DNA of 50,001 bases from an uncultured Clostridia bacterium (GTDB lineage: Bacteria; Bacillota; Clostridia; Oscillospirales; Oscillospiraceae): NCBI GenBank assembly GCA_947058885.1, contig CAMSIF010000006.1, positions 1 through 50,001 of the forward strand, given 5' to 3'. Shown here piece after piece: positions 18,258-49,951 of this stretch (positions are counted from its first letter, which is position 1; every line of letters begins with the position of its first letter). Made by a program: the position numbers and the translations under genes. The notes under the pieces are model-generated. The model was given only the letters and a program-made list of their open reading frames with translations, was not told where the DNA came from and made no database searches.

Positions 18258-19016
18258 TTATGTCTCCCGGCTCTGCCGGGGAACGGCGTCCAAAAAGACG
18301 CGGGCAAAATCCTTGGCAAGCTGGTTTTGTATCTCCGGCAGGAGCTGTTCCGCCAGGGCCGTCTGCTCCTCCCGGACCTGAAGCAGAGCGTTCCCGTCCC
18401 GGAGCCGGAGCCGGAAATCAGAAAATCCCAACGCCATCAGCGCCGCCTCCCCCCGGGCTATCCGGTCCAGGGCTTCGGCGGTAATGGGCGTCCCGGCGGG
18501 CACGCGGGTGGCAAGACAGGCGTAGGAGGGCTTGTCCCACACAGGAAGCCCCGCTTCCCGGGCCAGCCGCCGGATTTCCGCCTTGGTCACGCCGCACTCC
18601 CGCAGGGGGGAGCGGACGCCTAATTCCGCCAAGGCCCGCATACCGGGACGGTCTGAGGCGTCGTCCGAGGCGTTGCCGCCGTCCAGAACCACTGGGAAGC
18701 CGTCCTGGGCCGCCGTTTTCAGCAGAAGGGTAAAGAGGGCTTTTTTGCAGTAATAGCAGCGGTTGGCCGGGTTAGCCGCCGCCTCCGGCACGTCGAGAAT
18801 ATTAAACTCCAGCACAGTCAGCTTCGCCCCCAGGCGGCGGGCGGTATCCTCTGCGTCCTCCCGCTCAAAATCCGGTTGGAACGGGGTCTGGACAAAGTAG
18901 GCGGCAGTACTCCGGCAGAGCCGGACCGCCTCGTGGAGCAGCCACGCGGAGTCCACGCCGCCGGAGAAAGCCACTGCGGCGTCTGGGGTTTTTTGGAAAA
19001 ATTCTTCAATGGTCAT
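18258..19016 (-). CDS. larE: LarE-type sulfur-inserting enzyme (nickel-pincer cofactor)
   Basis: 252-residue PP-loop ATPase of the LarE family, which activates a pyridinium carboxylate with ATP and inserts sulfur to build the nickel-pincer nucleotide of lactate racemase and related enzymes. The ATP pyrophosphatase loop is AFSGGVDSAW (16-25). Three cysteines stand where the Fe-S type of LarE has them: Cys87 and Cys90 in NRCYYCKK, and Cys167 in KPSYACLATRVP. The one-cysteine LarE gives up its own sulfur; the three-cysteine type carries a [4Fe-4S] cluster and can turn over, which is what this sequence suggests. larB, larC and larA are not in the window. It runs in the same direction as the deacetylase gene, 15 bases downstream of it. 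Confidence 0.9.
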   Translation of the reverse strand: MTIEEFFQKTPDAAVAFSGGVDSAWLLHEAVRLCRSTAAYFVQTPFQPDFEREDAEDTARRLGAKLTVLEFNILDVPEAAANPANRCYYCKKALFTLLLKTAAQDGFPVVLDGGNASDDASDRPGMRALAELGVRSPLRECGVTKAEIRRLAREAGLPVWDKPSYACLATRVPAGTPITAEALDRIARGEAALMALGFSDFRLRLRDGNALLQVREEQTALAEQLLPEIQNQLAKDFARVFLDAVPRQSRET

Positions 19017-20138: not shown

Positions 20139-23100
20139 ATGAACAAAAAGAGAATCCGCCAGATGAGCGCAAGCCTTCTGCGCCGTCTGACCACGCAGCC
20201 AGCTGTCCGCTGGCTGGCGCCCCACAGGGACATGCTGGTCCGGCTGCTGGAGGAACAAAATTTTATACAGCGTTTCGTGCCGCTGTACGACGGCACAAGA
20301 CTGAAGTGCGCCAATATTCTCATGCTGTGCCGGGAGGAGCTGGATTGCCTCGCCCCGGAGCCGGAGGAGGGCTGGCTGGCCTTTGCCTACGATTTTGCCC
20401 GGAAGTCCATGTTTCCCGACCCGGCTTTTGAGCCCCGGCGGGAGCGGTATGGGGCGGGGGCGGCGTTTCTGCTGGCCCTCCTGCAAGTGCTGCTGGACGC
20501 GGAGCGGGCCAAGCTTCCGGCGGATCCCCTCTGGCAGCTGGAGCTGCTGGAAGACGGCGAGCTGGAGGGTCTGGCCCATCAGGACAGCTACCGCCTGTTT
20601 CTGCGCAGCTACCGCCGGGAGTACGTCTATGAGATGATGCGTCTGGGGCTGGAGGCCACCCCCTTCCGTACTCTGGAGCATATTGCCGGAGTCCATCATG
20701 TGGCTCTCAGCGTGGCGCGGGACTTGAAGGCGGCGGGAGTGCCCATTGATTTGGCTCTGGTGTCCGCCAGCGCGGCGGGGCACGACATCGGCAAGTTTGG
20801 CTGCCGTCCCGGCGAACGGGTGCCATACCTGCACTACTATTACACCGACCTCTGGTTCCGCAGGCGGCACATGGAGGACATCGGCTACGTAGCCGCCAAC
20901 CACTCCGTCTGGGATTTGGAGCTGGACTACCTGTCTGTGGAATCCCTGGTTCTCATTTATGCCGACTTCCGCGTCAAGCAGGAGCGCGGCCCCGCTGGAC
21001 AGGAGATAACCAAAATATCTACCCTGACAGAGGCGTTCGACGTGATCCTTTCCAAACTGGACAACGTGGACGACGCCAAGCGTACCCGCTATACCTTTGT
21101 TTACGCCAAGCTGAGAGATTTTGAACGCTACATGGTGAGCCTGGGGGCGGACACATCTCTGGGCGGCGGGGCGCGGAGCGGTCCCTCCGGACGAAAAGAC
21201 GTGGCCCTTATGGACCCGGCGGAGGCGGTGGAGGCACTGCGGCTTCTGGGCGCGGAGCACAATATCGCCCTGATGAGCCGCCTGACCAACCAGCGAAGCT
21301 TTGCGGGCCTGCTGGAGCTGGCCCGGGGCGAGACCGACTGGCGGCGCCTGCGGGCCTATCTGGGCGTGTTCAACTCCTATTCCGTCTACCTCAGCGCGCC
21401 CCAGAAGGTGCAGACGCTGGCGTTCCTCTACGAATTGCTGATGCACCGGGAGGGGGATATCCGCCGCCAGGCCGCCGCGCTGATAGGGGAAATTATCGCC
21501 CGGTTCCAGGCGGGATATGTGAAGGAAAAGCCCGCCAATTATGTGCCGGACAGCCGGGCTTCCATGGATTTGGACCAGTGGAAGCTGTACCTGGAAAAGG
21601 TCGTTTGTCCAGATGCCAAGCTGATGGCCCAGCACCGGCGTTGGATCAGCTATCAGCTGAAGACGATTGTCAATTCCCTTCTGGAGAAATGCGGAGCGGA
21701 CCGCCGGGGGCTGTTCCTCAAGGCGTTTCTCCGCTATTACCGCCATCCGGACCGCCTGGAGGACGAGGTGGCCTTCCAGCTGCTGGAGACCGCCACCGCC
21801 CTGCCCCGGGATGTGCTGGAGGACCGCCAGCGCAGTTCCCTGCTGGCCTTCGCCCACGCGCTCTCTGACCGGGAGACGGAGGAGGTGCGGGTAGCGGCAG
21901 GCCTGCTGATGGAATATCTCTCCCGGCGGGCCGTTCCGGCGGAGAAGGCCAAAACCGCGTCCGCTCCCGGCTTAAAGCTGGAACAACACCTCACGGATGA
22001 GGAGGTCTCGGAAATTTTCCTGGATAATCTCAAGGCCGCCACGCCCTGGATTGTCAAACAGGTCAATATCCGCCGTCTCACCCGCTTCGCCCAGGACGGC
22101 GGCGGCCGCCTCCTGCACATTGCCACCCATCTGACCAATCTGGTAAAAGTCAGCGGGCAGGTGGCTGTCCGGCAGAGCGCGGGGGACGCCCTGCTGGACA
22201 TCGCCCCGCAGCTCACCGCCGAGGAGCGCAATGAGGTGGCGGTGGAGCTGGGCCGGGGCCTGGAAATCGGCCAGCTGGAATTCTCCAAATATATCCCCGA
22301 CTGTTTGGGCAGGTTCTGCCTGTGGCTGCCGCCGGACCTGCTGGAGGAGATGCTGGACGACCTGGACGAAACCCTCTGCTCCTCCAATGGACGGGTAATT
22401 TCCCTGGCTCTGGATACTGCCGCCGTTATTTACGAGGAGTACGATACCTACCGGGTCCGGTTTCCGGAGGAGGACGAAATTTACCGCCGCCGCCGGGAAC
22501 GGCTTCTGGGAATGCTGCTCAAGGGCCTGGCCGGTATCCAGCCCGAGGTACGCCAGGAGGCCCTGTTTGTTCTGGGCCGCCGTGTGTTCGGTTCCAAAAC
22601 CCTGGGCCGTCACGAAAAACGGCGGGCGTTCCTGCTGACCCTGAAAAAAATTCTGGCCCTTGTGGGGGAGATGCCCGGGGATGAGCTGACCTTCTACTAC
22701 CGGGCCGCTATGTTGGGCAGGCTCTACCGCTTTGTCACCGAGGAGGAAATTCTGCACGGCGGCTTCCAGTTTGAGGAACCCCGGCCCGTGGCCTTCTTCC
22801 CCGGCACCTTCGACCCGTTTACGCTCTCCCATAAGGGGATTGTTCGGGCTATCCGGGACTTGGGCTTTGAGGTGATGCTGGCTATTGACGAATTTTCCTG
22901 GTCGAAAAAAACCCAGCCTCACCGGACCCGCCGCCGTATCGCCGCCATCTCCACGGCGGATGAGTTCCACGTGTCTATCTTCCCGGAAAATTTCTCCGTC
23001 AACATTGCCAACCCCCAAAATCTTGCCGCCCTTCGCGCCGCCTTTCCGAACCGGACAACCGCCATTGTGGTGGGCAGCGACGTGGTGGCTAACGCCTCCT

Positions 23101-24884
23101 CCTACCGCAAGCCGCCGGAGGAGAATTCTATCCACACCTTTGACCATATCATCTTCCGCCGCGACCACGGAGACGTCCCGCCGGACTACGGAGCTATTAC
23201 CGGACATGTAGTGGAGCTGAAGCTGCCCACTCATCTGGAGGCTATCAGCTCCACCCGTATCCGGGAGGCGGTGGACCAGGGCCGGGATATCTCCAACCTC
23301 ATCGACCCGGTGGCGCAGGAATTCATCTACCTCCACGGCCTCTACCTGCGGGAGCCCCAGGACAAACCTCTGCTGCGGATGGAAGATATGTCCTTCCAGC
23401 GGCGGCTGGAGCTGACGGAGGAGACGGAAGCTCTGCTGCGGCCCGCTGTTCTGGCGGGCCACCCGGACCCGGACGGCCTGTTTGCCAGACTCCGGCAGCT
23501 GAAGGACCATGTTTATGTTCTGCGCCAGGAGGAGAGCGGTACGGCCCTTGGCTTTGCCAGCTTCCGGTGCCTGGATTCCCACCAGCTGTTCTCCCGTCTG
23601 GGCAGCGCGGAGCTTACCGCCTTCGTCCGCCAGCAGACGGGAGGCCGGGCCCTGATTATCAGCGGCATCTACGTGCCCCGGGGCCCGAATCAGCTGGATT
23701 TGTGCCAGCTGCTTCTGACGGAAGTCATTACCCTAGCCCTGCGGCAGGAGTACGCCTACGCCCTCTTCTGTCCGGCGGAGCCTGTGGCCGCCTATGTGCG
23801 GGAGATCCTTATTCTACAGGGCTTTGTCACCGCGCCGGTGGCCTCGGGAGAACAGGAATTGCTGGCAGTGGATATGCGCCGTCCCATTGTCCTCACCCGA
23901 AATGTGGAGACCTCCATTAAAGCGCCCTTCGCGTCCAATCCAGCGGTGCTCGCCGCCGTTTCCGCCGCCCACAGAAAACTCCAGCGTTCCCTGACAGAGC
24001 TGTACCCGGGCTGTCTGGTGCTTTCCATGTCGGCGGGGGTGATTTACCAGCGGCTTCTGCGGAAAATCGCCGCCTGCAACGGAGTCCCGGCGGAGCCTGC
24101 CGGTGTGCTGGGGGACTGCATCTGCGTGCCCTTCGGCAAAATCCTCCGTGGGGTGGCGGTGCCCAATACCGTCACCAAGACCCTCCACACCGACAAGGTT
24201 TACGAGCCGGATCTCTCTTCCTATTCCATTGAATCCTACCCCTTCTATCCGCCCCTGCCGGACCAGGTACGGATGATTCAAAGCTTTAACCGCCCGGTAA
24301 TCCTGGTGGACGATATGCTCCACGACGGAAAACGTATCCGCCGTATCGCCCCTCTTCTGGCGGAGAGCGGCGCGCAGGTGCGGCAGGTGCTGGTGGGTTA
24401 TCTCACCGGCGTGGGCCGGGACACGATGGAGCTTCTGGGCTGCCCGGTGGACAGCGTGTACTATCTGCCCAACCTGCGGATGCGGTTTGTGGAATCTACC
24501 CTGTATCCCTTCATCGGCGGCGACACGGTGCGCCGGAGCGAGCCTATGGCCGGAGGTCTCCAGCCAGCGGTAAACCGGATTTTCCCATACGCAGCCCCGG
24601 ATTTCAGCGAGGACTGTGCCGACGGCTCTACCTACCGGCTGTCCCTGTGCTGCCTGGAGAACGCCCGGGATATCCTGCTGGCCCTGGAGACGGAGTACCG
24701 CGCCCTCTACGCCCGGAATCTGACCCTCAGCCGGTTAGGGGAGGCAGTGATTCTGCCGCTGTGTCCGGACAAGGGCAGCTGCATGGTCTATGATCTCAGC
24801 CGCGCCGCGTCCGCATATCTGGATAATGATATTGAGATGCTGCGGCGGCTGCAAGCCAGCGTGAAAATTGTCATTGGAGGGTAA
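20139..24884 (+). CDS. 1581-residue HD / helical-repeat / nucleotidyltransferase / PRTase protein
   Basis: Start ATG 20139 follows GGGGGG; an ATG at 20103 lies inside the promoter. Order of domains: an HD domain (about 180-290) with His186/187, His215-Asp216, His255 and Asp276, a metal phosphohydrolase set; a long helical region without obvious motifs, resembling HEAT-type repeats (about 380-870); an adenylyl/cytidylyltransferase domain (about 885-1070) with FFPGTFDPFTLSHKG (889-900 core) and ISSTRIREAV from 1036, closest in look to NadD; a GNAT-like segment (about 1085-1250); and a phosphoribosyltransferase-like domain with VILVDDMLHDGKR at 1387-1399, the PRPP loop. A helical tail follows. 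The set suggests cleavage and rebuilding of a nucleotide or its precursor. The whole protein is known to me only as 'cytidyltransferase-related'; function not established. One base separates it from the next gene. Confidence 0.85.
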   Translation: MNKKRIRQMSASLLRRLTTQPAVRWLAPHRDMLVRLLEEQNFIQRFVPLYDGTRLKCANILMLCREELDCLAPEPEEGWLAFAYDFARKSMFPDPAFEPRRERYGAGAAFLLALLQVLLDAERAKLPADPLWQLELLEDGELEGLAHQDSYRLFLRSYRREYVYEMMRLGLEATPFRTLEHIAGVHHVALSVARDLKAAGVPIDLALVSASAAGHDIGKFGCRPGERVPYLHYYYTDLWFRRRHMEDIGYVAANHSVWDLELDYLSVESLVLIYADFRVKQERGPAGQEITKISTLTEAFDVILSKLDNVDDAKRTRYTFVYAKLRDFERYMVSLGADTSLGGGARSGPSGRKDVALMDPAEAVEALRLLGAEHNIALMSRLTNQRSFAGLLELARGETDWRRLRAYLGVFNSYSVYLSAPQKVQTLAFLYELLMHREGDIRRQAAALIGEIIARFQAGYVKEKPANYVPDSRASMDLDQWKLYLEKVVCPDAKLMAQHRRWISYQLKTIVNSLLEKCGADRRGLFLKAFLRYYRHPDRLEDEVAFQLLETATALPRDVLEDRQRSSLLAFAHALSDRETEEVRVAAGLLMEYLSRRAVPAEKAKTASAPGLKLEQHLTDEEVSEIFLDNLKAATPWIVKQVNIRRLTRFAQDGGGRLLHIATHLTNLVKVSGQVAVRQSAGDALLDIAPQLTAEERNEVAVELGRGLEIGQLEFSKYIPDCLGRFCLWLPPDLLEEMLDDLDETLCSSNGRVISLALDTAAVIYEEYDTYRVRFPEEDEIYRRRRERLLGMLLKGLAGIQPEVRQEALFVLGRRVFGSKTLGRHEKRRAFLLTLKKILALVGEMPGDELTFYYRAAMLGRLYRFVTEEEILHGGFQFEEPRPVAFFPGTFDPFTLSHKGIVRAIRDLGFEVMLAIDEFSWSKKTQPHRTRRRIAAISTADEFHVSIFPENFSVNIANPQNLAALRAAFPNRTTAIVVGSDVVANASSYRKPPEENSIHTFDHIIFRRDHGDVPPDYGAITGHVVELKLPTHLEAISSTRIREAVDQGRDISNLIDPVAQEFIYLHGLYLREPQDKPLLRMEDMSFQRRLELTEETEALLRPAVLAGHPDPDGLFARLRQLKDHVYVLRQEESGTALGFASFRCLDSHQLFSRLGSAELTAFVRQQTGGRALIISGIYVPRGPNQLDLCQLLLTEVITLALRQEYAYALFCPAEPVAAYVREILILQGFVTAPVASGEQELLAVDMRRPIVLTRNVETSIKAPFASNPAVLAAVSAAHRKLQRSLTELYPGCLVLSMSAGVIYQRLLRKIAACNGVPAEPAGVLGDCICVPFGKILRGVAVPNTVTKTLHTDKVYEPDLSSYSIESYPFYPPLPDQVRMIQSFNRPVILVDDMLHDGKRIRRIAPLLAESGAQVRQVLVGYLTGVGRDTMELLGCPVDSVYYLPNLRMRFVESTLYPFIGGDTVRRSEPMAGGLQPAVNRIFPYAAPDFSEDCADGSTYRLSLCCLENARDILLALETEYRALYARNLTLSRLGEAVILPLCPDKGSCMVYDLSRAASAYLDNDIEMLRRLQASVKIVIGG

Positions 24885-24885
24885 A

Positions 24886-26589
24886 ATGGGATACTATTTG
24901 TATAAAAATCACGTATTATACGGAGAAGGGGCGCCGGGAAAACCTCTGGACCGCCTTCCGGAAGAGGAGGAAATCCTGTGCCTCTTCCGCCGGAAGCCCC
25001 TTACAGGACGTGAAACCTTTCCCGTCACCGCTTCCGCTCAGCTGACCGCCGCCGAGGGGCCGGAATCCCTGACGGCCAATGGAGAAAGTGTTCCGGGCAT
25101 CCCGGCGGATTTGGAGGAAGCTGTCCGTCAGGGCAGGGCGCGGGCAGTGAATGCCGACCATCCCCGCTGGGAGGAGCTGCTGGACCTGCCCCATCCGCCG
25201 GAAAAGCGCCGGGTCCATCTGCTGGCCCTGGGGGATGTGGGCAGTACGCTGGCCCTGGGGCTGCGGCTTCTGGGCGGGGATGTGCTCTCCGCTATCGGTA
25301 TCTGCGACCTGCGGCCCAACGTGGCGGAACGGTGGGAGTTCGAGCTTAACCAGATTAACACCCCGGCGGGCGCGGGATTACCCCCGGTAGAAATTGTCGA
25401 TATCCATCACATATTTGACTGCGATGTATTCCTCTTCTGCGCGTCCCGGTTCGTGCCGGACACGGCGGTAAAAACCGGAGACGTGCGCATGGCCCAATAT
25501 GAGCTTAACCGGGAGCTGGCCGCCAGCTATGGCCGCATGGCCCGGGAAAACCATTTTCAAGGGCTGTTCTGCGTGGTCAGCGATCCGGTGGACCCCCTGT
25601 GCCGGGCAGTGCTGCTGGAAAGCAACAAAAACGAGGCCGGAGAGCTGGACGGCCAGGGGCTTTTCCCCCACCAGGTCCGAGGGTTCGGGCTGGGCGTGAT
25701 GAATGCCCGGGCGGCTTACTACGCCCAAAAGGACCCGCGCTTCGCGGACTTCCTCACCGACGGACGGACCTTTGGTCCCCACGGCGAGGGGTTGGTAGTG
25801 GCCAATTCCATTCGCCGCTACGACGGCGCGCTGTCCAGAGAACTGACGGAGAAGACCAAACACGCCAATCTGGACATGCGGGAATTGGGCTATAAGCCCT
25901 ACGTGGCTCCGGCGTTGTCGTCGGGAGCGCTGAGCCTGCTGCTGTGTTTGCGGGGGGAATGGCATTGTTCGTCGGTTTTTCTGGACGACATCTTCATGGG
26001 TGTCCGCAACCGCTTGACAGAAAAAGGCTGTGAAGTGGAACAGCTTGCCATGCCGGACGCTCTGCTGGACCGCATTCGGGAGACCATGGCGGAGCTGAAA
26101 ATGGTCGAATTGGACGTTGCCGCCGGAGACGCGGATAACGCGATTACCGTTATGCGGGAGGTGTCCCGGTGGGGACGGGAACGGGGCCTGCGGCTCTGGC
26201 CGGAGGAGTGTTTGACGAGAGAAGCCCTGGTAACAGAGGAAGCCGGACCGGAGAGCTTCTGCGTGGGGGCTTTTGGCGGGGAAACGGCCTGCGCGTTTAT
26301 TTTGCAGTGGCAGGACCGGGAGTGGTGGCCTAACGCCCCCGCGGGAGAGGCGGCTTATCTCCACAAGCTCTGCGTCCGGCGGGATTTTGCCGGGAAAAAT
26401 GTCCCGGCGAAGGTCCTGGATTATATCAAGCGGGAGTGTAAAAAGCGGGGCGCGGCGGCAATTCGGCTGGATACTGCCTGGGATGAGGAGACTGTGAAAA
26501 ATATATATTTGCGTCTTGGATTTGAGATTGCAGGCAGGAAGGAACTGCCCAATGGACGGGTTATGGCGTTGTATGAAATGAAGGTTTAG
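24886..26589 (+). CDS. Lactate/malate dehydrogenase-like protein fused to GNAT domain
   Basis: 567 residues from ATG 24886, after GGAGGG at the end of the giant gene. After about 105 residues of unclear type comes a Rossmann start, HLLALGDVGSTLALGLRLLG (from about 110). Features of the lactate/malate dehydrogenase superfamily follow in order: a VKTGDVRMAQYELNREL segment (substrate arginine region), VVSDPVDPLCRAVL near 228 (the N-P-V-D motif, here DPVD), RGFGLGVMNARAAYY, and GPHGE at 297-301, whose His299 stands at the catalytic histidine. The last 130 residues are a GNAT domain: EAAYLHKLCVRRDFAGKNVP, then EETVKNIYLRLGFEIAGRKE. It is therefore a probable 2-hydroxyacid or similar oxidoreductase joined to an acyltransferase. 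Substrates unknown. It lies one base from both neighbours. Confidence 0.8.
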   Translation: MGYYLYKNHVLYGEGAPGKPLDRLPEEEEILCLFRRKPLTGRETFPVTASAQLTAAEGPESLTANGESVPGIPADLEEAVRQGRARAVNADHPRWEELLDLPHPPEKRRVHLLALGDVGSTLALGLRLLGGDVLSAIGICDLRPNVAERWEFELNQINTPAGAGLPPVEIVDIHHIFDCDVFLFCASRFVPDTAVKTGDVRMAQYELNRELAASYGRMARENHFQGLFCVVSDPVDPLCRAVLLESNKNEAGELDGQGLFPHQVRGFGLGVMNARAAYYAQKDPRFADFLTDGRTFGPHGEGLVVANSIRRYDGALSRELTEKTKHANLDMRELGYKPYVAPALSSGALSLLLCLRGEWHCSSVFLDDIFMGVRNRLTEKGCEVEQLAMPDALLDRIRETMAELKMVELDVAAGDADNAITVMREVSRWGRERGLRLWPEECLTREALVTEEAGPESFCVGAFGGETACAFILQWQDREWWPNAPAGEAAYLHKLCVRRDFAGKNVPAKVLDYIKRECKKRGAAAIRLDTAWDEETVKNIYLRLGFEIAGRKELPNGRVMALYEMKV

Positions 26590-26590
26590 T

Positions 26591-27628
26591 ATGTCGATTG
26601 TTGCTATTTTACCACAGAATGATTACAGCGAGGAATTAAAAGCTGTCCTCCAGCCCCTCCTTCCCGAGGACGCTCTCTGGCGGGACCCGGCGGACGGTCT
26701 GGAGGGCCTTCGGGGCAGGAAGCTTCTCTTCGCCGTGGCCCTGGACCGGGGAGGCTGCAACCTCAGCTACTACCGAATGCTCTCGGTACTCCGCCTGGGA
26801 GACGGCCTTTTGGAGGGATGCCTGGCCGTAGTGGTGGTTACCGGCGTGGGGGAGCTCTACACCAAGGACGTGGCCCGGGATATGGTGCTGGCGGCCAATC
26901 TGGCGGGATGCGCCTTTCTGGGGCGGCCGCTGGTGGAGGCTACCGGGTCCCTGCGGAATTTCCAGGTCCAGGCGCAAATCCACGGCACCGACGAGCCTAC
27001 AGCTTTCCGTATCGCTCTGGCGGAGCTGGCGGGACGGCTTCTGGACTGGGAACCCCTGCCGCCGCCCCGGCGCGTGCTGGCCCTCCACGCCTCCGCCCGC
27101 GCCACCAGCAATACCCTTGCGCTGTGGGAACTGGTGAAATCCAGCTTGCCGGAGGAAGTGGCGGTGCAGGAGGTCTGCCTGCAAAACGGTACGCTGGCCG
27201 ACTGCATTGGGTGTACATACACCACATGCCTCCACTTCGGCCAGGGAGGCGGCTGTTTCTACGGCGGGCCTATGGTGGACGAGGTGTTTCCGGCGGTCCG
27301 GGACTGCGACGCCCTGGTAATGCTCTGCGCCAACTACAACGACGCCCTGGCGGCTAATCTGACGGCCTTTGTCAACCGCCTGACGGCCCTCTTTCGCCAG
27401 AGCAGGTTTTATGATAAGCGGCTTTACGGCCTTATTGTCTCCGGCTACTCCGGCGGAGATTTAATTGCCCGGCAGCTGATATCGGGGCTGAATATGAACA
27501 AGAGCTTTTATCTGCCTCCCCGGTTCTGTATGCTGGAGACGGCTAACGAGAAGGGAAGTCTGGTGAAGCTTCCGGGTATCGCGGAGAGGGGGGCGGCGTT
27601 TGCGGCCCGGATGATGTCCGGAGAGTGA
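26591..27628 (+). CDS. Flavodoxin-fold NAD(P)H-dependent FMN reductase-like protein with N-terminal extension
   Basis: 345 residues. Residues about 1-150 are an unrecognised alpha/beta domain with LLFAVALDRGGCNLSYYRML and a VVVVTGVGELYTKDVARDM segment. From about 157 a flavodoxin-like reductase domain begins: VLALHASARATSNTLALWEL (flavin phosphate loop), then ADCIGCTYTTCLHFGQGGGC (C-x-x-C-rich turn seen in iron-sulfur flavoproteins), DALVMLCANYNDALAANLTA (second flavin loop) and GLIVSGYSGGDL. It would carry FMN and perhaps a cluster at the four cysteines. It follows the dehydrogenase-GNAT gene with a single base between. Electron transfer within the operon's pathway is inference. Confidence 0.78.
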   Translation: MSIVAILPQNDYSEELKAVLQPLLPEDALWRDPADGLEGLRGRKLLFAVALDRGGCNLSYYRMLSVLRLGDGLLEGCLAVVVVTGVGELYTKDVARDMVLAANLAGCAFLGRPLVEATGSLRNFQVQAQIHGTDEPTAFRIALAELAGRLLDWEPLPPPRRVLALHASARATSNTLALWELVKSSLPEEVAVQEVCLQNGTLADCIGCTYTTCLHFGQGGGCFYGGPMVDEVFPAVRDCDALVMLCANYNDALAANLTAFVNRLTALFRQSRFYDKRLYGLIVSGYSGGDLIARQLISGLNMNKSFYLPPRFCMLETANEKGSLVKLPGIAERGAAFAARMMSGE

Positions 27629-27638
27629 GGAGAATTCT

Positions 27639-28166
27639 GTGCGTAAGATTATTCTGGATAAAGATGAGCTGTCCGGGACAATTCTGGATTTGGGCGGCGG
27701 AGGCGAGGGCGTTATTGGACGGATTTGCGGAGGGCGGGTGACTGCCATCGACAACCGGCAGGAGGAGCTGGACGAGGCCACAGCCGGGGCACGAAAACTG
27801 CTGATGGATGCCCGGAAGCTCCAGTTTCCGGATGAGGCGTTTGACTGCGTCACCAGCTTTTACACCCTCATGTATATCCAGCGGGAGGACCACGGGGCGG
27901 TGGCCCGGGAGGCATACCGGGTGCTGAAGTCCGGCGGAATATTCCATGTCTGGGATGGGGAGATTTTCTCAGCATACCCGGAGCCGTATCTGGCAGAGCT
28001 GGATATTGATGCGGCTGGAGAGGCAATACATACTACCTACGGCATTATTAAGGAGAACGCCGCACAGGATGCGGATTGGGTGACGGAGGTCTGTGTCAGG
28101 GCTGGTTTCACCCCGGTACAGCGGGTTGAGGAGGCAGGGCATTTCCGTCTGGCCTTTCAAAAATAA
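27639..28166 (+). CDS. Class I SAM-dependent methyltransferase
   Basis: 175 residues from GTG 27639, ten bases after the previous stop and preceded by GAGGAG. SAM-binding motif I is ILDLGGGGEGVIGRICGG (16-33); the acidic end of strand 2 is VTAIDNRQEEL; motif for adenine MDARKLQFPDEAFDCVTSFY; and the post-motif helix REAYRVLKSGGIFHVWDG is standard for small-molecule methyltransferases of the UbiE/Methyltransf_11 type. No nucleic-acid-binding extension is present, so a small-molecule substrate is likeliest. It ends the four-gene operon, right before a strong hairpin. Confidence 0.88.
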   Translation: MRKIILDKDELSGTILDLGGGGEGVIGRICGGRVTAIDNRQEELDEATAGARKLLMDARKLQFPDEAFDCVTSFYTLMYIQREDHGAVAREAYRVLKSGGIFHVWDGEIFSAYPEPYLAELDIDAAGEAIHTTYGIIKENAAQDADWVTEVCVRAGFTPVQRVEEAGHFRLAFQK

Positions 28167-28168
28167 AA

Positions 28169-28201
28169 AGCGCCCCTGGAGAATGGTTCTCCAGGGGCGC
28201 T
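28169..28201. terminator. Shared terminator between convergent operons
   Basis: Perfect 15-bp stem AGCGCCCCTGGAGAA / TTCTCCAGGGGCGCT with a TGG loop. Minus-strand transcripts get a T-rich tail (CTTTTTATTTTT) and so stop well here; for the plus-strand operon the T run is poor and the hairpin may mainly end the mRNA. Confidence 0.8.
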
Positions 28202-49584: not shown

Positions 49585-49951
49585 GGGGGTGTACCGGTTT
49601 CGACGGGGATGAGGAAGCGGGACCAGCGGGCGGTGGCGCCTGACCACCTCAAAACGGGCAACCTTTATAAATTAAAGAACAACGATTCTTTGCTTATTGC
49701 TGCCTAATTAACGGCAGCCGTCCGACTTAAGAGTACTGCGGCTTAAGAAGGGCGTCGTTTAGCAGTGAACGTGAGTACGGTAAGCTTTGCCCGTACCATG
49801 CATCATGAAGCTCACCTGACCTGTAGGCGTGACGGCTTGCCTGCTGGGAGGGGAACAGGGCGGTAACGCCGTCCAGAATAACCGCCTGCGCCCGGAGAAA
49901 GTCCCGTGAAATTGTTTTCGGACAGGAGTTCGACTCTCCTCACCTCCACCA
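49585..49951 (+). ncRNA. ssrA: Transfer-messenger RNA (tmRNA)
   Basis: 367 nt. It frees stalled ribosomes and tags the unfinished protein for breakdown. The 5' end GGGGGTGTACCGGTTTCGACGG pairs with the 3' CACCTCC, which carries an encoded ACCA. The tag frame resumes at GGC 49657 and runs to TAA 49705-49707, giving the tag (A)GNLYKLKNNDSLLIAA, with the resume codon and layout like Bacillus (GGC start, ending in AA). The T arm GGAGTTCGACTCTCC is standard. smpB and rnr are not seen. No clear terminator lies in the remaining 50 bases. Confidence 0.97.

Follow-up and report, generated by a model that had tools for sequence, protein, structure and literature searches.

Among the closest described counterparts of the locus analyzed here are enzymes that assemble and proofread nicotinamide adenine dinucleotide (NAD). 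The HD-domain protein YqeK edits the products of the adenylyltransferase NadD, acting on nicotinic acid adenine dinucleotide (NaAD), its counterparts NaCD and NaUD, and 8-oxo-GTP (PMC9426524, in the sections drawn on here), and NAD salvage pairs of a phosphoribosyltransferase with an adenylyltransferase, such as NadV with NadM or NadR in phages, attach a base to phosphoribosyl pyrophosphate (PRPP) and then adenylylate the mononucleotide to a dinucleotide (PMC9503650, as far as the sections used describe them). We analyzed 50,001 nucleotides from an uncultured Clostridia bacterium (assembly GCA_947058885.1, contig CAMSIF010000006.1, positions 1 to 50,001; the whole stretch is called the window below), in which three consecutive genes code for a giant protein of ca. 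1,580 amino acids (aa) with HD, helical-repeat, NadD-like, GNAT-fold and phosphoribosyltransferase (PRTase)-fold domains (gene 1), a protein resembling lactate/malate dehydrogenases (LDH/MDH; gene 2) and a flavoprotein (gene 3). These three genes almost certainly share one function. Their identical distribution in the genomes sampled, and their retention together where they are scattered, point to a whole undescribed pathway. Its enzyme types are those required for building a dinucleotide and correcting errors in it, but the nicotinate-recognizing part is replaced.

Joint distribution and retention of the three genes

Profile searches of 398 Bacillota genomes recovered the giant in eight, the window's own included, and the profiles of gene 2 and gene 3 also found eight genomes each in the same draw. 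The carriers were identical for all three genes (G000, which is the window's genome, G420, G468, G525, G642, G652, G702 and G704). If the genes were independent, the chance of two equal sets of 8 among 398 would be 7e-17, a value to be taken only as a guide because linkage of the genes is the rule in these eight genomes. At the level of the order, the giant was found by profile search in 3 of 295 genomes, again counting the window's own. It is present in all 25 genomes of the window's genus (own included, some as pieces at contig ends) and in none of the 35 other genomes of the family and order in the same draw. A match in G058 (E = 1.3e-4, 24% identity) resembles a plain NadD stretch and was left out of the counts. 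Gene order is conserved as well, with genes 1, 2 and 3 adjacent and in the same order in eight of nine distant loci (the exception is L072), where the giant has 36 to 48% identity. Acetoanaerobium noterae is a named carrier, and there the three open reading frames (ORFs) are consecutive.

The strongest evidence of a shared function is retention where the genes are unlinked, since linkage cannot explain it. G652 carries the giant on contig C1, separately from genes 2 and 3, both of which are on C29. Seven genomes (G006, G007, G008, G011, G012, G017 and G018, corresponding to loci L033, L045, L048, L035, L032, L049 and L037, paired by equal contig coordinates) have no gene 3 within 3.8 to 9 kb after gene 2, and all seven carry it on a separate contig. 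G014 has genes 2 and 3 on contig C76, 1.7 kb apart, and the giant on C50; the 1.5 kb that follow the giant contain no gene 2. Altogether, gene 3 was found in 26 of the 27 carriers examined. For genes 1 to 3, the check on scattering among relatives favors a shared pathway, as they are found in the same eight genomes and kept even where they are apart.

The same data bear on whether the three genes simply travel together by transfer without any shared function. They are linked in most of the far-set loci, and the tree of the giant contains hints of transfer between families: G107, from the window's family, groups with G204 and with three loci titled Lachnoclostridium, Lachnospiraceae and Clostridiaceae rather than with the window's genus (support 84/94, below the threshold for a star), and two members of family f55 (G468 and G702) are placed apart from a third (G642). 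Transfer is unsure because the branches of this tree are long. The pairwise distances of the three genes correlate (r = 0.88 to 0.91), and the gene 3 tree is poorly resolved, with 2 of 15 inner branches starred. However, co-travel is contradicted by co-retention in the unlinked state, in G652 and in eight genomes of the window's genus, and also by the invariant active sites described below, and we consider it barely credible.

Active sites and a proposed function

The window is contig C6 of an assembly of 2.40 Mb (76% complete, 178 contigs). Its four forward-strand ORFs are separated by gaps of 1, 1 and 10 bp, at the positions given in a preliminary description of this DNA; the ORFs of genes 1, 2 and 3 are 1581, 567 and 345 aa long, respectively. 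The features are as follows.

20139..24884, + strand: gene 1, giant multidomain protein (1581-aa ORF; homologues found)
20556..21173, + strand: HD phosphohydrolase domain of gene 1 (residues 140-345; invariant HD residues)
21174..22778, + strand: helical (HEAT-type) repeat region of gene 1 (residues 346-880; HEAT matches)
22779..23372, + strand: NadD-like nucleotidyltransferase domain of gene 1 (residues 881-1078; GxFDP...H and SSxxIR)
23373..23873, + strand: GNAT-fold domain of gene 1 (residues 1079-1245; fast evolving)
23874..24548, + strand: type I PRTase-fold domain of gene 1 (residues 1246-1470; altered PRPP loop)
24886..26109, + strand: LDH/MDH-like part, the conserved core of gene 2 (residues 1-408; the whole gene is 24886-26589)
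26110..26589, + strand: C-terminal GNAT domain of gene 2, accessory (in the window and L053 only, of 14 rows)
26591..27628, + strand: gene 3, FMN-reductase/flavodoxin-type protein with an extra N-terminal part (four invariant Cys)
27639..28166, + strand: gene 4, an accessory class I methyltransferase (175 aa, GTG start; found in 2 of 34 carriers)
28169..28201, - strand: 15-bp hairpin (T run on the - strand; resembles a terminator of the convergent gene rather than of this operon)

No family covering the whole giant was found in the Pfam and NCBIfam scans. The HD, helical-repeat, NadD-like and PRTase domains already proposed for it were upheld, a GNAT-fold domain has to be added, and the PRPP loop proved unusual. 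Among the 20 giants aligned, H181, H215, D216, H232, H255 and D276 of the HD domain are invariant, so that the signature H..HD..H..H..D is present in all of them, with a Pfam HD match in 11. Equally invariant in the NadD-like domain are G889, F891, D892, P893, H898, S1037, S1038, I1041 and R1042. These two domains have the largest share of invariant positions (18% each), followed by the PRTase-fold domain (8.9%), the tail (8.1%), the helical region (4.9%, i.e., 26 of 535 positions in residues 346-880), the GNAT-fold domain (1.8%, 3 of 167 positions) and the N-terminal stretch (0%). HEAT matches were obtained for 12 of 20 giants, with E values of up to 0.5 (Pfam). The GNAT fold was supported by a fold test, but the R/QxxGxG/A acyl-CoA motif was not found there by eye, and the domain is probably not catalytic. 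The type I PRTase fold of residues 1246-1470 is supported by a predicted structure, and near its DD pair there is a PNTVTK motif with each position invariant or at least 90% kept. Searches of PDB sequences with the PRTase and HD profiles gave no firm match, and the alignment of ComF with the PRTase part was confined to the region of the PRPP motif (1.8% probability). The earlier expectation that the active sites do not vary freely holds for the HD domain, for the ATP side of the NadD-like domain and for the LDH-type Arg and His of gene 2; the PRTase loop is altered.

The NadD-like domain differs from the ordinary enzyme. All 10 carriers tested have an ordinary NadD, separate from the giant and over the curated cut-off of TIGR00482 (112.45 bits), whereas in the same number of genomes (10 of 10) the domain of the giant scores 36 to 59 bits, under the cut-off. 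The motifs of the ATP side are present (GxFDP, the second His of HxGH, and SSxxIR). In contrast, when 12 giants were aligned with 10 NadDs, none of the giants had PPHK, the SYTxDT-type motif or the Trp, which we take to form the nicotinic acid mononucleotide (NaMN) side of NadD. Their places are occupied by DE[FY]SWSK, [PS][VI]N[IL] and A[ST]xY, and these replacements are in turn nearly invariant; the Trp is kept in all 10 ordinary NadDs of the carriers. A fusion of the ordinary NadD with a YqeK-type HD domain occurs in three of five carriers checked (G000, G107 and G652), and the HD domain of the giant has, by eye, a motif order like that of YqeK.

One alternative is that the giant is a second NadD/YqeK-type system for repair or salvage of pyridine nucleotides that have been damaged or reduced, in which the two redox proteins would reset the oxidation state. 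The NadD fold, the proofreading precedent of YqeK (PMC9426524, in the sections cited above) and the tie of two redox proteins to the giant agree with it. However, the NaMN-side residues are not kept, the carriers already possess NadD and, in part, the YqeK-type fusion, and presence in 8 of 398 genomes is ill-suited to a general repair system. We regard such a role as improbable.

Gene 2 keeps R201, R275 and H299 in all 19 rows, residues to which, following the numbering and roles that we assume for the LDH family, active-site functions can presumably be assigned. The Asn of the SNPVD motif of that family is replaced by Asp (position 233) in the same 19 rows. The Pfam domain Ldh_1_N exceeded its cut-off in 6 of 10 genomes and fell short of it in 2; the other 2 gave no match. 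Gene 2 had been described as an LDH/MDH-GNAT fusion; its LDH/MDH-like part is conserved, but the GNAT domain is found in just 2 of 14 rows, those of the window and L053. Gene 3 was correctly seen as a flavodoxin-fold reductase with an additional N-terminal part. The FMN_red domain of the window protein scores 56.7 bits (Pfam cut-off 24), each of the 18 rows aligned keeps C205, C208, C213 and C222, and the flavoprotein probably carries an iron-sulfur cluster. No PDB sequence matched gene 3 at 0.01.

The products of genes 1 to 3 may form one obligate metabolic module, a reading that we hold tentatively and that builds on the equal distribution of the genes in the sample, their mostly conserved order and co-retention, and on the strict conservation of the HD residues and of the ATP-handling residues of the NadD type. 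As a general scheme, it is possible, at somewhat less than an even chance, that the module turns a base and PRPP into a mononucleotide and then a dinucleotide, with editing and with redox partners. The PRTase-fold domain would attach a free base, or a similar acceptor, to the ribose 5-phosphate of PRPP. The NadD-like domain would link the resulting mononucleotide with the AMP moiety of ATP to form a dinucleotide other than ordinary NaAD, and the HD domain could hydrolyze dinucleotides that are incorrect or in excess, in the way YqeK serves NadD. The helical-repeat region and the GNAT-fold domain may act as a scaffold, and the LDH-like protein and the flavoprotein would oxidize or reduce the product, or use it. 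A more specific version, a private redox coenzyme, seems quite improbable: it would be an NAD-like dinucleotide with a base other than nicotinamide, built and edited by the giant, served by two dedicated oxidoreductases alongside NAD, and gene transfer would have spread the system through Bacillota.

Several observations weigh against the scheme. The model of the PRTase-fold domain has a low mean pLDDT (predicted local distance difference test) of 62. The PRPP motif DDxxxTGxT does not appear in the giants in its usual form: DD is kept in 18 of 20 and changed in 2, and TGxT is replaced by xGxR in 18 of 20, so that PRTase catalysis is not assured. The similarity of the HD domain to YqeK is weak at the profile level (hhalign against five YqeK-type domains of carriers gave a probability of 5% and E = 0.007, aligned at the HD motif), the likeness being one of motif order. 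The GNAT-fold domain is hardly conserved. In gene 2, the Asp partner of the catalytic His is apparently missing (by eye), and its chemistry may for this reason differ from that of LDH. In G021, a poor assembly (67% complete), gene 3 was not found and the giant has two stop codons within one piece. No base-making gene belongs to the module, and we infer every reaction, the base and the product from co-occurrence, unlinked retention, folds and invariant residues, which are the observations proper.

The unusual PRPP loop and the lower conservation of the PRTase-fold domain, half that of the HD and NadD-like domains, would also fit an adenylyltransferase with an editor, the NadD-like and HD domains adenylylating and de-adenylylating a nucleotide or sugar phosphate that the cell already contains and the PRTase-fold domain being a non-catalytic nucleotide sensor, with no base attached. 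Nevertheless, the DD pair is kept in most giants and the PNTVTK motif is conserved more strictly than a loose sensor seems to need. This possibility appears rather unlikely, and we retain, tentatively, the scheme with base attachment.

Accessory genes and neighborhoods

The earlier proposal was that a four-gene operon makes, salvages or modifies a cofactor-like compound that is oxidized, acylated and methylated. The tight packing of the four genes in the window agrees with acylation and methylation as part of the basic function, and G004 has a methyltransferase 44% identical to that of the window (L116 3143-3700), located 3' of gene 3. Yet these two genomes are the only ones with the methyltransferase among 34 carriers (at E = 1e-15; it adjoins gene 3 in both), which excludes the four-gene set as a family-wide unit. 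Because of this and of the rarity of the gene 2 GNAT domain, acylation and methylation are not core steps. The four-step pathway is largely refuted across the family and is highly improbable as the basic function; it could be a local elaboration in two species. For genes 1 to 3, the checks favor a shared pathway, and the previous interpretation is partly supported. In G004, the methyltransferase and gene 3 are off the giant's contig, on a short contig where a break is possible.

The observation as a whole was partly confirmed, the four ORFs and their gaps being real. The single promoter assigned to the operon was not upheld, as the sole strong promoter-like site points away from it, and neither was the terminator, since the T run on the minus strand makes the hairpin fit a convergent gene. 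Near the ends of the window there are a tmRNA (49585-49951, +) and a tRNA-Ala(GGC) (2127-2202, -).

At L072 (1381-12871, in G652), a C-C bond lyase gene faces the giant in convergent orientation, and next to it come YceG, a TelA-like gene (by eye) and three copies of TerD. The Ter biosynthetic module uses a PRTase and presumably makes a nucleoside-like metabolite. This raised a link to Ter, which was dropped: only 2 of 10 carriers have TerD, and Pfam scans of 20 giants gave no match to a Ter-type PRTase or to TRSP. A Ter-type cluster in the window's own genome, with five matches to TerD, does not include the giant (L089 6956-11462, contig C31). An anti-phage or stress system making a nucleotide signal would agree with the patchy distribution, with the Ter-type genes and lyase beside the giant of G652 and with a weak match to ShosT (0.0016) within the PRTase part of L106, one of three giants scanned with PADLOC. 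On the other hand, the three core proteins of the window had no PADLOC match at 0.01, TerD is infrequent among carriers, no effector-like partner was seen, and presence in every genome of the genus is unlike what is expected from a defense island. We consider this role very unlikely.

Two other neighborhoods were evaluated. A LarE gene lies one gene from the module (window 18258-19016, -; TIGR00268, 236 bits, cut-off 150), and the nickel-pincer cofactor served by LarE starts from NaAD. The link was rejected, as tblastn over 133 loci found LarE in the window's own flank only. Genes for GltS and a glutamate-type dehydrogenase adjoin the module in L046 (10675-18299), L051 (14882-23523) and L069 (2167-8146) by Pfam, and in L054 (14906-23785) by eye. 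A histidine kinase and a response regulator with a YcbB domain follow gene 3 in L046 and L051 (Pfam); in L054, the regulator was confirmed by scan and the kinase was seen by eye. These were not taken as indicating function, as such neighbors were not noticed in other loci. In L051, a 2-hydroxyacid dehydrogenase comes next. Gene 3 is found apart from the giant in L107 (5192-7472), L110 (5028-7242) and L114 (7921-11108), after a DUF1538 membrane protein (for L107, identified by Pfam) and a protein of 225 aa that matched no Pfam family. In L075 (12773-14327), the alpha and beta genes of a serine dehydratase have the same orientation as the giant and run up to its start.

A collection-wide scan with exact 8-residue words of the window protein returned 26 loci, each bearing a Bacillota-type name in its title; because the scan relied on such words, carriers in other phyla may have escaped it. 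The search of phages for the module gave no match, and among viral contigs there were 10 pattern matches and no true relatives. The plasmid records contained one carrier, the 2.63-Mb replicon of Acetoanaerobium noterae (NZ_CP154629.1, locus L106), labeled plasmid pTPELB2, although its size looks chromosomal.

Comparison with described systems

The three-gene set was not named in the open-access literature searched, among the matches listed (titles and abstract openings), with most subscription journals outside that search. A new product would mean a hitherto undescribed coenzyme or nucleotide metabolite of anaerobic bacteria, of which many, judging by record titles, come from gut samples.

Lactate/malate dehydrogenases (Ldh_1_N) share with gene 2 the NAD-binding fold and the Arg and His residues presumed to lie in the active site. 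Gene 2 differs in the Asn to Asp change in SNPVD, in the catalytic Asp that seems to be missing and in an extra N-terminal part, and its profile found no copy without the giant among the 398 Bacillota genomes. Similarly, gene 3 resembles iron-sulfur flavoproteins in its FMN_red domain and four-Cys cluster, but the C-x2-C-x4-C-x8-C spacing of the window protein departs from the usual motif of that group, and there is an extra N-terminal part. The Ter stress-response module, with its PRTase and presumed nucleoside-like metabolite, is comparable to the giant, which adjoins Ter genes in G652; the giant differs in that 8 of 10 carriers lack TerD and in the absence of Ter-type PRTase or TRSP matches from the giants.

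NadV-type PRTases have another fold than type I PRTases. The salvage pairs and the proposed scheme are alike in going from base and PRPP to a dinucleotide by adenylylation (for the pairs, as given in the cited sections of PMC9503650). The giant differs in its type I PRTase fold and in having both steps on one chain with an HD domain, and the module in having two obligate redox partners. NadD and its fusion to YqeK are like the giant in fold and in the ATP-side motifs, and the fusion also in pairing a NadD-type domain with an HD hydrolase, which in YqeK edits dinucleotides according to the sections cited. However, the giant falls under the NadD cut-off in every genome tested, its NaMN-side motifs are replaced, the HD domain is placed first, and the chain has helical, GNAT-fold and PRTase-fold domains in addition. 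All parts of the module are known enzyme folds, and its kind is that of a PRTase with an adenylyltransferase and an editor; should its product prove to be a new coenzyme, the module would belong to a new category.
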